Shown here: positions 56,731-60,844 of the stretch, in pieces
Position numbering within the stretch: position 1 is the first letter of the stretch
Layout of the letters: every line of letters begins with the position of its first letter
Assembly (NCBI RefSeq): GCF_913055165.1
Contig: NZ_CAJXJS010000011.1
Coordinates: forward strand, 1 to 64,000
Direction: 5' to 3'
Length of the DNA: 64,000 nt
From: an uncultured Devosia sp.
GTDB taxonomy: Bacteria; Pseudomonadota; Alphaproteobacteria; Rhizobiales; Devosiaceae
Translations under genes and position numbers: made by a program
The notes under the pieces: generated by a model
What the model was told of the DNA's origin: nothing
The model's input: the letters and a program-made list of their open reading frames with translations, nothing else
The model's database searches: none

Positions 56731-57009
56731 CTAATGCACGGTGGCCGGTTCAATCGGCGTCGCTGGTCCGCTGCCGACCTTCGGGCCAGCCCAGAAAACG
56801 ACATAGAGCAGGTCCTGACCCGCGGCGTCCTGAATCTCGATTGAGCGAGGCGCGTCCATTGCGCCCCCTTCACCCGCCACCTTTTCGATGATGGCTCGAC
56901 CCATTTCGGCAGCCGATTTCTCGGCGGCTTCGAGATTGGCGTGTTCGCTGCCGGACTCGTCCCGGATCAGCCTGTCTTCGGTGCGGTAGTGAAAGTAATA
57001 TCGCGGCAC
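56731..57009 (-). CDS. small DUF6894-like protein
   Basis: This 92-residue protein begins MPRYYFHYRTEDRLIRDESG and continues EHANLEAAEKSAAEMGRAII, the pattern of DUF6894 small cytosolic proteins common in Hyphomicrobiales. The C-terminal half has the short strand SIEIQDAAGQDLLYVVFW. Function is unknown. No signal peptide or membrane helix is present. It converges with the 31-residue peptide gene. Confidence 0.75.
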   Translation of the reverse strand: MPRYYFHYRTEDRLIRDESGSEHANLEAAEKSAAEMGRAIIEKVAGEGGAMDAPRSIEIQDAAGQDLLYVVFWAGPKVGSGPATPIEPATVH

Positions 57010-57097
57010 GATCTATTCCCGTTTCCCGGGTTAAACGTCCGGCGGCGGCATGGGTTGCCAAGGCCAAATCAATGTCAGTGTGGCACCAGTAGCCGCG

Positions 57098-57649
57098 TCA
57101 GTCGACCCCGCGCAGAGCGCGGTAGCCATGCCGGTGCCACAGGAGAGGGCTGGCCCCTGTTCGCGTCTCCGCATCGACAATTGCTCCGGCGAAAAGGACA
57201 TGAGTGCCGGTTTCCATGGCCCCGATCACCTCGCAGTCCAGCGCTGAGACGGCCCCCTGCAGCAAAGGTTGCCCGGAGGGCCAGGCGTCCCAGTTCCCAA
57301 CGTCGAAACGTTTTGCTGGCTCGACCTGGCCCGCAAAGGCGTTGGCGACGTCCTCCTGGCCTGTAGCCAACATGGCCATGGAGAAGCTTCCCGTCTTGGC
57401 GATGAGATCAGCCAGACGGCTGACGATGTCGATCGAGACCAGAATGGCGGGTGGCTGCGCGGACAGGGAAAGCACTGATGTCGCCGTGCGGCCGACGCGC
57501 TCATCTCCGCGCCGTGCGGCCACTACATGCACACCCGATGCCATGCCTGACATTGCGGAACGGAATTCGGCGTCATTTACGGCCGGGCGGCGCAGCGGCC
57601 TCAGGGCCATGGTATCGGGCAGATCGAAATCGGGCATAGGGATAGTCAT
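57098..57649 (-). CDS. flavin reductase-like (FMN-binding split-barrel) protein
   Basis: This 183-residue protein has the flavin reductase fold with FRSAMSGMASGVHVVAARRG, GRTATSVLSLSAQPPAILVSID, and the substrate/flavin segment FSMAMLATGQEDVANAFAG. HVLFAGAIVDAETRTGASPLLWHRHGYR is the typical C-terminal motif. Such enzymes reduce FMN/FAD with NAD(P)H for monooxygenases, but no oxygenase is adjacent. I use ATG 57649; a TTG eight codons earlier is possible. It lies about 130 bp downstream of sodB on the same strand, beyond a terminator. Confidence 0.85.
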   Translation of the reverse strand: MTIPMPDFDLPDTMALRPLRRPAVNDAEFRSAMSGMASGVHVVAARRGDERVGRTATSVLSLSAQPPAILVSIDIVSRLADLIAKTGSFSMAMLATGQEDVANAFAGQVEPAKRFDVGNWDAWPSGQPLLQGAVSALDCEVIGAMETGTHVLFAGAIVDAETRTGASPLLWHRHGYRALRGVD

Positions 57650-57730
57650 GGTGGAAAGTCTGCCTGGGTGCAATGCGGTCTGTGGGCCTGCGGTGCCGCC
57701 ACTTGGGCCGCCGATCCAACTTCGGGCAAA

Positions 57731-57766
57731 TGGAAAACGGGATACATGGAGGGTATGTATCCCGTT
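57731..57766 (-). terminator. terminator of sodB
   Basis: AACGGGATACAT (57736-57747) and ATGTATCCCGTT (57755-57766) form a perfect 12-bp stem. On the minus strand it is followed by TTCC, giving a short U-run 13 bp after the sodB stop. Confidence 0.75.
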
Positions 57767-57778
57767 GAACTGCGGTCC

Positions 57779-58381
57779 TTAACCCAGATTGGCCTCAGCG
57801 AACTCGTAATTGGCAAGCTTGTCGAGGAAATTGCTCACATAATCGGGCCTGCGGTTGCGAAAATCGACATAATAGGCATGTTCCCAGACATCCAGGCCCA
57901 GCAGTGCCTTGCCTTCACCTGTCGCCAGTGGATTTGAGCCATTAGGCGTCTTGGTGGTCCGGAGCTTTCCATCCGAACCCAGGATGAGCCAGGCCCAGCC
58001 CGAACCAAACTGGGTGGTTGCCGCCGTCTTGAAACTATCCTTGAAGGCGTCGACCGAACCGAAGTCCTCGGCGATCTTGGCTTCAAGCCGACCGGGCAGC
58101 TTGCCGCCATTCGGGTTCAGCGCCTGCCAGAAGTGGATGTGGTTCCAGTGCTGTCCGGCATTGTTGAACACGGGTGCCAGATCCGGCTTGTCCTTGGCGA
58201 ACAGCACGATCTCGTCCAGCGACTTGCCTGCCAGCTCGGGCATCTTCTCCACGAAACCATTGAGTGCAGTCACATAGGCCTGGTGGTGCTTACCGTGATG
58301 AAGTTCCAGGGTTTCCTGGCTCATTCCGCCAGCGGCGAGGGCGTTTGCCGAGTAGGGCAGGGCTGGTAGCGAGAAAGTCAT
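57779..58381 (-). CDS. sodB: superoxide dismutase, Fe-type
   Basis: This 200-residue cytoplasmic enzyme removes superoxide. Metal ligands are His28 (LELHHGKHHQAY), His81 (QHWNHIHFW), and Asp164/His168 (DVWEHAYYVDF). Gln77, four residues before His81, is the position that usually marks iron-type enzymes; manganese types mostly have Gly there. The start at 58381 follows AAAGGA. It is divergent from the SufR-like regulator gene, with an 18-bp near-palindrome (58404-58421) only about 30 bp from the sodB start, so direct control by that regulator is likely. There is no signal peptide. Confidence 0.95.
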   Translation of the reverse strand: MTFSLPALPYSANALAAGGMSQETLELHHGKHHQAYVTALNGFVEKMPELAGKSLDEIVLFAKDKPDLAPVFNNAGQHWNHIHFWQALNPNGGKLPGRLEAKIAEDFGSVDAFKDSFKTAATTQFGSGWAWLILGSDGKLRTTKTPNGSNPLATGEGKALLGLDVWEHAYYVDFRNRRPDYVSNFLDKLANYEFAEANLG

Positions 58382-58403
58382 GATCGCATCCTTTCGCAAT
58401 CGA

Positions 58404-58421
58404 CTTGCATGATCAGGCAAG
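58404..58421. promoter_or_regulatory. 18-bp near-perfect palindrome between sodB and the SufR-like gene
   Basis: CTTGCATGATCAGGCAAG is its own reverse complement except for one position pair, with a GATC-centred core. It lies 23-40 bp upstream of the sodB start and 47-64 bp upstream of the regulator start, where a regulator could control both genes. It does not resemble Fur, Irr or SoxR boxes that I know. Confidence 0.6.
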
Positions 58422-58467
58422 CCGGGCTAATTTCCAAGCAATGGCTTTGAAAACCCTTTCGAGAGAT

Positions 58468-59142
58468 ATGTCAAGCTCGGCCTTGGAAAATACGGCATGG
58501 TCGCCGCGCAGCCCATCCGAACGCATCCTCATGGCACTCAAGATGCATGGCGCGCTGTCGGCGGCCGCTCTGGGCGAGATGTTGGGCATTACCAGCGAGG
58601 CAGTGCGTCAGCAGCTCCTGCGTCTCGCTGATGAGAACCTGGTCGAAGCCCGGAGCGCCTCCGGTGGCGTAGGGCGACCGACCCAGCTCTGGAGCCTGGC
58701 GCCTGCCGCGCAGGCCCGCTTTCCCGACACCCACGCTGCACTGACTGTCCAGCTCCTCGACATCGTGCGCACGCGTCTCGGTGAGGACACGCTCAATGCC
58801 ATCATCGCGGCCCGCGAGAGCGATACGCGTGAAGCCTATATGGCCGCCATGGAGCCTGCCGACGACCTCAGGGCGCGGGTTGCGGCCCTCGCCGACCAGC
58901 GCAGCAGGGAGGGCTACATGGCCGCCTGGACCGAACAGCCGGACGGCTCGGTGCTGCTGGTCGAGAACCATTGCCCCATCTGCGCCGCGGCGACGGCATG
59001 CCAGGGGTTCTGCCGCGCCGAGCTGGACGTGTTCCGCTCGGTTCTGGGGCCGGACGTCTCCGTCGAGAGACTGGAGCATATCGTGTCGGGTGGGCGGCGC
59101 TGCACCTATTCCATAAGGAGCCTGGCCGATGCATCCGCCTGA
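58468..59142 (+). CDS. SufR-like winged-helix regulator with C-terminal Fe-S cysteines
   Basis: This 224-residue DeoR/ArsR-like protein has an N-terminal winged helix (SERILMALKMHGALSAAALGE, recognition helix ITSEAVRQQLLRL). The C-terminal cysteine set is NHCPICAAATACQGFC (Cys169, 172, 178, 182) plus Cys212 in GGRRCTYSI, as in SufR-type sensors that bind a labile Fe-S cluster. Cluster loss under oxidative or nitrosative stress or iron lack would change DNA binding. I start at ATG 58468, where the family N-terminus begins; an ATG at 58441 is possible. It overlaps the truncated haemoglobin gene by 14 bp. No suf genes are adjacent. Confidence 0.85.
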   Translation: MSSSALENTAWSPRSPSERILMALKMHGALSAAALGEMLGITSEAVRQQLLRLADENLVEARSASGGVGRPTQLWSLAPAAQARFPDTHAALTVQLLDIVRTRLGEDTLNAIIAARESDTREAYMAAMEPADDLRARVAALADQRSREGYMAAWTEQPDGSVLLVENHCPICAAATACQGFCRAELDVFRSVLGPDVSVERLEHIVSGGRRCTYSIRSLADASA

Positions 59143-59620
59143 TCGCCCGCCCGTGGGCACCCAATTGCACCGCATCGGCTGGGAGACACCGGAGGGTTTG
59201 GACGAAGCTCTGATCCGTGCCGTGGTCGTCGAATTCTACGCCCGCGCCCGCCGGGACGATGTTATCGGCCCGGTCTTCAATCGCATTATTCCGGATGCCG
59301 ATTGGCCGGCGCATCTCGACAAGATTGCCGATTTCTGGAGCTCCATGCTCCTCGGGTCCGGCCGGTACAATGGCCGCCCCATGCCAAAGCATATGGCTAT
59401 TCCCGAGCTTGCCGACGCCCACTTCATGCGCTGGCTGCGCCTCTTCCGCGAGACCGTCGAGGAAATCTGCCCGCCGGACATCGCCGCGCTCTTCGTCGAG
59501 CGCTCCGAGCGCATCGGCAATTCCTTCCGTATGAACATCTCCATGCGTCGGGGTGACGACATCACCCGTCTCGGCCCGCTGCCGCGGGAAGCCGCGCCCA
59601 TCTGGAAGCCCGACCCCTAG
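59129..59620 (+). CDS. group III truncated haemoglobin
   Basis: This 163-residue haem protein has the short 2-on-2 globin fold of group III: EALIRAVVVEFYARARRDDVIGPVF at the start, DWPAHLDKIADFWSSMLLGSGRY in the middle, and AHFMRWLRLFRETVEE with the likely proximal His98. The C-terminus is about 30 residues longer than minimal members. Roles in this group are linked to oxygen or nitric-oxide chemistry. It is translated from the same message as the SufR-like regulator (14-bp overlap), pointing to a shared NO/redox response. Confidence 0.88.
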   Translation: MHPPDRPPVGTQLHRIGWETPEGLDEALIRAVVVEFYARARRDDVIGPVFNRIIPDADWPAHLDKIADFWSSMLLGSGRYNGRPMPKHMAIPELADAHFMRWLRLFRETVEEICPPDIAALFVERSERIGNSFRMNISMRRGDDITRLGPLPREAAPIWKPDP

Positions 59621-59697
59621 GCCCGGCGCCGCCTCACCGTCAGCAATGGAACTTTCCGCGCCTCTGCCGCTTGCCAGAAGAGGGAAGGAGAACTGAC

Positions 59698-59904
59698 ATG
59701 GCCACAATGGTGAGACTGACCGAGGAGCAGATCGTCCGGCTTCTCGAGGAAGCTGACAGCATGGAGACTGCCCTCAAGGACCTGCATCAGGAACTGGTCG
59801 ATCTGGGCACGCCCAAGGAGACCATGACGCGCTTCTCACGCGTGCATGACCGCTTTACCGAGATTCTCGCATTCCTCCGGCGCCAGCGCGAACTGGGAAC
59901 CTAG
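59698..59904 (+). CDS. 68-residue helical protein of unknown function
   Basis: This short protein starts MATMVRLTEEQIVRLLEEAD and is predicted all-helical and charged (METALKDLHQELVDLG, FTEILAFLRRQREL), with heptad-like hydrophobic spacing that suggests a small coiled-coil dimer. AAGGAG precedes the ATG at 59698. I do not recognise a family. It follows the truncated haemoglobin gene by 77 bp and overlaps the end of the convergent glycosidase gene by 4 bp. Confidence 0.65.
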   Translation: MATMVRLTEEQIVRLLEEADSMETALKDLHQELVDLGTPKETMTRFSRVHDRFTEILAFLRRQRELGT

Positions 59905-60844
59905 GCGCCCGCAAGCAGCGCCAGGTCCGCAGGCACGTCGCGTTCGAACACCAGCCTGCCGTCTACCACGCTCAACCGCGCCTGATGGATCGCCGTGCGC
60001 CGCGCGGCAACATCGGGCGGCCCATCCGTCTGGCTGCGTTCTTCCCACTCCGGATGGGTGAAATAATACATGGCGGCGTGGTCGCCATTGACCACCACAT
60101 CCGCGTGGCGTGCATAACGCCGGTCCATCGGATCGGCCCCGGGCTCACCACCGACAATGCCTTGCCGGGTCCAGCCCAGCGTGTCGTCAGACCGATAGAC
60201 CGCCTGGCCGCGCCACTCATCCACGATCAGCCAGTAATACCCGCCCAGCGCGAACACGTTTGGCCCTTCATGCGGCGGGGCGTCCGGTGACCCGGGCAGC
60301 ACCAGCCCCTCGAGGGTCCAGGTCATCATGTCCGGGCTGGTCGCGCTCCAGGTGCTCGAGCCCTGGCCCTCATCCTTGTACCACATCCGCCACAACCCGT
60401 CGGGACTGCGGAACACGCAGGCATCAATGCAATTGCTGCTCGACAGCCTGAGCGGACCCACACGGGTCCAGTTCTCCAAATCCGGACTGGTGAAATGGGT
60501 AATGGTGCGCGGCACCTTCCAATGCGTCGGCACCCCGGTGATGTAGCTAAGGAACATGTGGTATTGCCCCCCGGCGAAGATCACCTCCGGCGCCCAATGC
60601 GTATTGAGCCCGGTGTCCCCCGGTGCATCCAGGCCCTTCACCGTGCCCCGATAGTGCCAGTTGCCGCCGCCATCGGTCGAAACGGCAATGCCGATGGGTG
60701 AGCCGTGGATCCAGCCAAATCCCGGTTCGTCCGCACTGGCCCGGCGATTGGTGTAGAACATCCACCACTCATCCGTGCCTTCTCGTTTCACCACGACCGG
60801 ATCGGCCGCCCCATCCTCGATCGGATCGCGATAGATCGGCGCGC

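Follow-up and report, generated by a model that had tools for sequence, protein, structure and literature searches.

In a genome of an uncultured Devosia sp., a SufR-like and probably Fe-S-based regulator (hereafter REG) appears to be wired to the superoxide dismutase gene sodB and to a truncated haemoglobin gene, a link that is well supported by gene order, by the cysteines of the regulator, and by two conserved inverted repeats that are predicted to be its operators. The genes lie in a stretch of 64,000 nucleotides (the window). We favour the reading, at a probability of roughly 0.65, that REG is an Fe-S repressor which controls sodB as well as its own REG-globin operon and which would be released by cluster damage. 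An earlier, sequence-only reading of this DNA had proposed an Fe-S switch for superoxide and nitric oxide (NO) defence. Gene order, cysteines, and operators argue for such a switch; the 18-bp palindrome that it had named as the central element does not.

The Locus and Its Genes

The features of the locus are listed in table 1.

Table 1. Genes, predicted operators, and inferred promoter elements around sodB and REG (positions in the window).
Feature	Position	Strand	Remarks
FLV, flavin reductase family gene	57098..57649	-	Pfam Flavin_Reduct, E 2.7e-38; 3' of sodB
Terminator-like hairpin, 12-bp stem	57736..57766	-	Between sodB and FLV
sodB, Fe-type superoxide dismutase	57779..58381	-	Sod_Fe_N/Sod_Fe_C; ATG 58381-58379
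18-bp palindrome CTTGCATGATCAGGCAAG	58404..58421	.	Only CTTGC conserved
REG -35 box (inferred) TTGCAT	58405..58410	+	Conserved CTTGC; 17 nt before TAATTT
REG -10 box (inferred) TAATTT	58428..58433	+	17 nt past TTGCAT
Operator 1 (predicted)	58431..58453	.	TTTCCAAG-CAATGG-CTTTGAAAA
sodB -10 box (inferred) TTCAAA	58446..58451	-	Inside operator 1; 17 nt from TTGACA; weak consensus match
Operator 2 (predicted)	58468..58490	.	ATGTCAAG-CTCGGC-CTTGGAAAA; overlaps first REG codons
REG, SufR-like winged-helix regulator	58468..59142	+	C-x2-C-x5-C-x3-C plus late Cys; start moved from 58441
sodB -35 box (inferred) TTGACA	58469..58474	-	Inside operator 2; conserved ATGTCAAG
Group III truncated haemoglobin gene	59129..59620	+	Overlaps REG 3' end by 14 nt
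Small ORF	59698..59904	+	No family over cut-off; relative near REG in 6 of the best 80 loci

The sequence-only reading had identified and placed most of these genes correctly: sodB, the divergent regulator gene with its CPIC-x5-C-x3-C motif and late Cys, the overlapping group III truncated haemoglobin gene, and the small ORF behind it, which matched no family over any cut-off. It had omitted FLV, which lies beyond sodB and also belongs to the conserved cluster. Judged from its best solved relatives and from its scores with the Fe model (204 bits) and the Mn model (180 bits), both of which are below the respective cut-offs, SodB is of the Fe rather than the Mn type. The group III membership of the globin comes from one solved relative, 2ig3, with which its residues 27-135 align over the globin core (109 residues, E 4.2e-22); no NCBIfam match was found for it. 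The hairpin between sodB and FLV has a predicted RNA fold of -19.2 kcal/mol (z -4.47), and two terminator-like sites were found in the stretch scanned, where 2.0 are expected by chance.

There are three start candidates for REG: ATG 58468, ATG 58441, and TTG 58405. Because ATG 58441 sits inside the first repeat and is absent from a number of relatives, the start is better set at ATG 58468; residue numbers are counted from ATG 58441. No suf genes adjoin REG, as had been noticed before, and sodB and the globin gene are found there instead; sufB of the same genome is on a different contig. The genome has a second Fe/Mn-type SOD gene (L195, G000:C9:69237-69533), perhaps that of a housekeeping enzyme, which leaves room for an inducible one at the REG locus.

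The Regulator and Its Cysteines

Proteins like REG are labelled "metalloregulator ArsR/SmtB family" by annotation. Against the cyanobacterial SufR model TIGR02702 REG scored 107 bits, below the cut-off of 178.8 bits. Two suf-linked actinobacterial SufR also remained below it (66 and 79 bits), so the cut-off seems to be made for cyanobacteria. In a profile search of solved structures REG was matched only over residues 5-121 of 225, which are winged-helix parts shared with MarR/ArsR-type proteins, and the cysteine region found no match there. The Rrf2 model (PF02082) gave 12.6 bits (E 0.16) against a gathering cut-off of 30, and the SoxR model TIGR01950 was not among the matches of REG.

The five cysteines C178, C181, C187, C191, and C221 were present in 135, 130, 132, 135, and 136 of 136 distinct sequences, respectively, two of these sequences being suf-linked SufR. 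C178, C191, and C221 are spaced C-x12-C-x29-C, which we counted as agreeing with the SufR pattern C-x12-C-x27/28-C, and they align with cysteines of the suf-linked SufR from Nonomuraea and Tsukamurella (L157 and L158). C181 and C187 are nearly invariant among the relatives of REG and absent from these two SufR. According to the available part of a study of mycobacterial SufR, C203, C216, and C244 are required in that protein, and their spacing resembles that of the three in REG (PMC6034842). By analogy with SufR, a [4Fe-4S] cluster is the natural guess for REG, in which C181 and C187 could tune or replace cluster ligands.

Two Conserved Inverted Repeats

The palindrome of the sequence-only reading is indeed present in the shared promoter, where it is the sole exact copy in the genome assembly (94% complete). 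The window has 18 palindromic 18-mers when a single mismatched pair is allowed (at least 8 of 9). It is not a conserved element. Among 58 aligned sodB-linked loci, pairing reached 8/9 in three and 7/9 in one, and in one of the three (L045) the self-complementary piece is placed differently. Relatives retain its CTTGC, which is probably the -35 box of REG, and lose its right arm. The palindrome was rejected as an operator on these grounds, two other inverted repeats being strongly conserved. Its absence from relatives that keep the gene order tells against the palindrome and not against the switch as a whole.

The repeats that stand out in the aligned sodB-linked loci are CCAAG-N6-CTTTGAAAA and TCAAG-N6-CTTGGAAAA, which begin 10 and 47 bp past the palindrome, 37 bp apart. 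From their conservation, the inverted repeats CAAG-N6-CTTTGAAAA and CAAG-N6-CTTGGAAAA are likely to be operators. The alignment comprised 58 loci (44 after near-copy removal), L043, L085, L106, and L107 having been dropped from the 62 sodB-linked ones. A strict CAAG-N6-CTT core was found in 57 of the 58 loci for operator 1 and in 50 for operator 2, leaving 8 without the latter. In loci where two sites were found, the spacing of the first pair is 37 bp for 46 of 56 sodB-linked loci, and 9 of 11 MFS-linked loci have a spacing of 42-46 bp.

A looser pattern, [CA]AAG-N6-CTT[GT], was searched in the 260 nt preceding codon 31. Loci with at least one site numbered 59 among 61 sodB-linked ones, 17 among the 19 remaining named ones, and 22 among the 42 from class-level genomes and plasmids, the expectation from single-base shuffling being 0.62, 0.18, and 0.30, respectively; the named loci and those of the drawn genomes are not independent sets, as L035 and similar cases are genomes occurring in both. 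Of 79 named loci, 75 had a site upstream, whereas two stretches of equal length inside the gene had one in 0 and 4 loci. No site was found in the other 20 class-level and plasmid loci or in either Phenylobacterium locus, and L085 and the Bacteroidota locus L107 have none, judged by poor scores. The motif follows REG also where the neighbour is an efflux pump and sodB is missing.

Across 41 Devosia genomes the pattern matched 96 times, of which 73 were at the REG locus and 23 elsewhere (hand count); some of the 73 are one palindrome read on both strands, and the matches in G061-G063, three genomes outside the REG search, were assigned to the locus solely from the 37-bp site pair. The reversed control pattern matched 21 times. 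As the off-locus count is close to that of the control, we claim no wider REG regulon in Devosia, and REG looks like a local switch there. Control of suf by REG was rejected as well, the cysteine desulfurase gene of the genome's own suf operon having no upstream site of either kind. A half-matching site, TTAAAAAGCCATAGCTTGGAAAA, recurs in three genomes (L123 at about 1501-1523, G008:C9:67866, and G010:C1:1757224); in L123, the one genome of the three that was inspected, it adjoins an apparent [2Fe-2S] ferredoxin gene.

In relation to the inferred promoters, operator 1 overlaps the -10 box and the start of the REG promoter, and operators 1 and 2 jointly cover the best sodB promoter candidate. 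A consensus scan of positions 57000-60000 reported no promoter, neither the REG nor the sodB boxes, and the sodB -10 box (TTCAAA) is thus the weakest link.

Distribution and Gene Neighbours

Of 37 Devosia genomes, 35 have REG, as do 2 of 24 genomes from the same order but different families; in a class-wide draw of 385 genomes it turned up in 45 (E 1e-20). The genome studied here is included in the first and last of these counts. Named bacterial and archaeal genomes yielded 111 relatives, and neighbourhoods were counted in the best 80 of these 111. Within 5 kb of REG, a SOD gene on the opposite strand was present in 61 of these 80 loci, a flavin reductase relative in 49, and a globin relative in 48. 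The divergent sodB-REG arrangement is retained in Devosia as well as in further families of Alphaproteobacteria, SOD also stands beside REG in one Bacteroidota, and the sodB side of some loci carries the ferredoxin gene fdxA and DoxX genes as well. The SOD of L085 is 1.6 kb away from REG and only 46% alike.

In the remaining 19 of the best 80 loci no SOD match was found within 5 kb. Eight of them have a divergent MFS transporter gene (Yersinia, Pseudomonas, and Phenylobacterium) and three an RND pump (L065, L079, and L082, from Sphingobium and Novosphingobium). In two (L072 and L078) REG stands between a flavin reductase and a glyoxalase-fold protein with an esterase, which is MhqD-like in L072 (127 bits, below the cut-off of 325); this gene set is suggestive of quinone handling. 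Two others have flavin reductase and globin, one has globin and the small ORF (L037, a contig that ends just upstream of REG), and three have none of the queried genes.

Thirteen plasmid records were opened, four of which (Sinorhizobium, Aeromonas, Caballeronia, and Nonomuraea) are unannotated in the stretch concerned. On a Sulfitobacter plasmid, SOD, fdxA, flavin reductase, and DoxX genes face REG and a "group III truncated hemoglobin"; REG is accompanied by SOD, DoxX, and RND on an Ancylobacter plasmid, by MFS on a Klebsiella plasmid, and by azoreductase and MFS genes on a Trichormus plasmid. We also observed this type of regulator with the repeat beside MFS genes in Yersinia and Pseudomonas (L095, L097, L101, L103, L105, and L108), and with an MFS transporter gene on conjugative enterobacterial plasmids of E. 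coli (L156) and Klebsiella (L147), the regulator of L156 being shortened and next to an IS30-like transposase gene. More distant relatives of REG in alphaproteobacteria (L167, L170, L173, L178, L179, L181, L186, and L187) have as their neighbour a protein of some 460 amino acids with a Rieske domain.

For the tree, L043, L048, L106, and L156 were dropped, and 97 of 119 rows were kept after near-copy removal. On this quick tree, parts of which are poorly supported (44 of 94 inner branches are drawn open), the SOD label changes 9 times, compared with 32.9 times in shuffles, so the partnership of SOD and REG has been inherited as well as swapped. The two suf-linked actinobacterial SufR are parted from REG by a long branch (100% SH-aLRT).

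Comparison with Known Regulators

SufR (cyanobacterial Sll0088, actinobacterial Rv1460, and others) resembles REG in its winged-helix N-terminus, in its C-terminal C-x12-C...C, in a palindromic site with an N6 spacer, and in being a likely autoregulator. In the available part of a 2021 review, SufR is described as limited to suf genes and, among organisms, to cyanobacteria and part of the actinobacteria, and holo-SufR is a repressor that binds CAAC-N6-GTTG (PMC8593673). In contrast, REG stands beside sodB and globin genes, has CAAG-N6-CTT(G/T) sites, and carries two extra cysteines. REG is probably SufR-like in action and a distant relative of SufR, and by its neighbours not a suf regulator.

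SoxR is an Fe-S sensor of the MerR type. REG resembles it in outline, being a supposed Fe-S sensor beside genes for SOD, flavin reductase, ferredoxin, and efflux pumps, but has a winged helix in place of the MerR fold, a different operator, and a supposed repressor function. No SoxR over the TIGR01950 cut-off was found in the genome studied here. SoxR is present in 10 of 41 Devosia genomes, and REG (45 genomes) and SoxR (30 genomes) occur together in 5 of the 385 class genomes where 3.5 are expected, so there is no mutual exclusion; REG as a substitute for SoxR was rejected. NsrR and IscR, of the Rrf2 family, are Fe-S regulators whose action is lifted by NO or by oxidants. The same is stated for RisR in the available part of its description (PMC9973013). 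The Rrf2 match of REG, with its E of 0.16, sets it apart from this family. MhqR, a quinone repressor, belongs to the MarR family; the glyoxalase-fold protein and esterase of L072 and L078 make a likeness to regulators of that type. A literature search by title and abstract start, with most subscription journals outside its coverage, found no paper on REG and no binding, expression, or cluster data for it.

Proposed Mechanism and Alternatives

The DNA itself shows the gene order, the cysteines, and the conserved repeats, with their spacing and, in Devosia, their confinement to the locus; from these we infer how the switch may operate. REG would bind an Fe-S cluster through C178, C191, and C221, and C181 and C187 would serve as further ligands or as reactive thiols. 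Dimers bearing the cluster would occupy operators 1 and 2. Both promoters would then be closed, that of REG by operator 1 over its -10 box and start, and that of sodB by the operator pair over its -35 and -10 boxes. Superoxide, a redox-cycling compound, or NO would damage or oxidize the cluster, and REG would leave the DNA. SodB, REG, and globin would be produced, the stress would be removed, and REG would close its own promoter again. Among the conceivable signals (superoxide, a redox-cycling compound, NO, or iron), NO is suggested by the globin gene only.

NO could be the main signal and globin the main product, with SodB guarding against peroxynitrite, in an NsrR-like unit. The overlap of the globin gene with the end of REG, its recurrence in 48 of the best 80 loci, and the 109 residues over which its product aligns with a group III globin of solved structure are in keeping with this, but SOD is the commoner partner (61 loci), and some SOD-linked loci have no globin match, although diverged globins may escape tblastn and some contigs break off early; we regard this reading as unlikely. 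It is also rather unlikely that REG senses iron or Fe-S supply as SufR does, so that iron shortage would lead to cluster loss and more SodB without any sensing of oxidants. All three SufR cysteines are kept in REG, and SufR responds to iron starvation as well as to redox and oxidative stress according to the available part of the review (PMC8593673). Yet SodB, itself an iron enzyme, would be a strange target when iron is scarce. The suf cysteine desulfurase gene has no site upstream, and among the other partners of REG are efflux pumps, a flavin reductase, a protein with a Rieske domain, and a glyoxalase-esterase pair.

The cysteine motif could also suit zinc or thiol chemistry, and REG might bind zinc or form a thiol switch and carry no Fe-S cluster at all. 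Two of its five cysteines are missing from both suf-linked SufR compared, and the annotation as a metalloregulator points the same way; however, the other three align with suf-linked SufR and resemble the set that is necessary in mycobacterial SufR, as given in the available part of that study (PMC6034842), and we think this reading improbable. Finally, the repeats might be conserved for coding or for the translation start and not as operators, since operator 2 overlaps the first REG codons and operator 1 the older start annotation. The codon choices make this very hard to believe. Of the 58 loci, 54 have an ATGTCA in frame and were used here (codon 2, TCA, was fixed by this selection and not counted as evidence); in these, REG codon 6 was TTG in all 53 cases of Leu, compared with 10% in the rest of the gene, and codon 7 was GAA in 54 of 54, compared with 40% elsewhere in the gene. 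Such fixed synonymous choices indicate a constraint on DNA and not on protein at operator 2. Moreover, operator 1 persists where ATG 58441 is lost, and Yersinia loci have both repeats upstream of the conserved start.

Significance

A broader role is conceivable. REG may belong to a large, horizontally spread subfamily of CPIC-type SufR-like regulators that are general Fe-S sensors for redox-cycling compounds, quinones among them. This would be a function like that of SoxR which arose independently on the SufR fold, and the CAAG-N6-CTT operator would have moved along from sodB to MFS and RND pumps, Rieske proteins, and quinone-handling genes. This proposal is drawn from the neighbouring genes alone, and we offer it tentatively, as possible though short of even odds.

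The SufR type of regulator is known; what is new here is its position at sodB and not at cluster-assembly genes. A SufR-like regulator with a recognizable site accompanies SOD in several families of Alphaproteobacteria, and in other places, enterobacterial plasmids among them, it accompanies efflux pumps. If the cluster is confirmed, REG would represent another Fe-S route to superoxide defence, and its conserved site would offer a direct means of predicting REG targets across many genomes.
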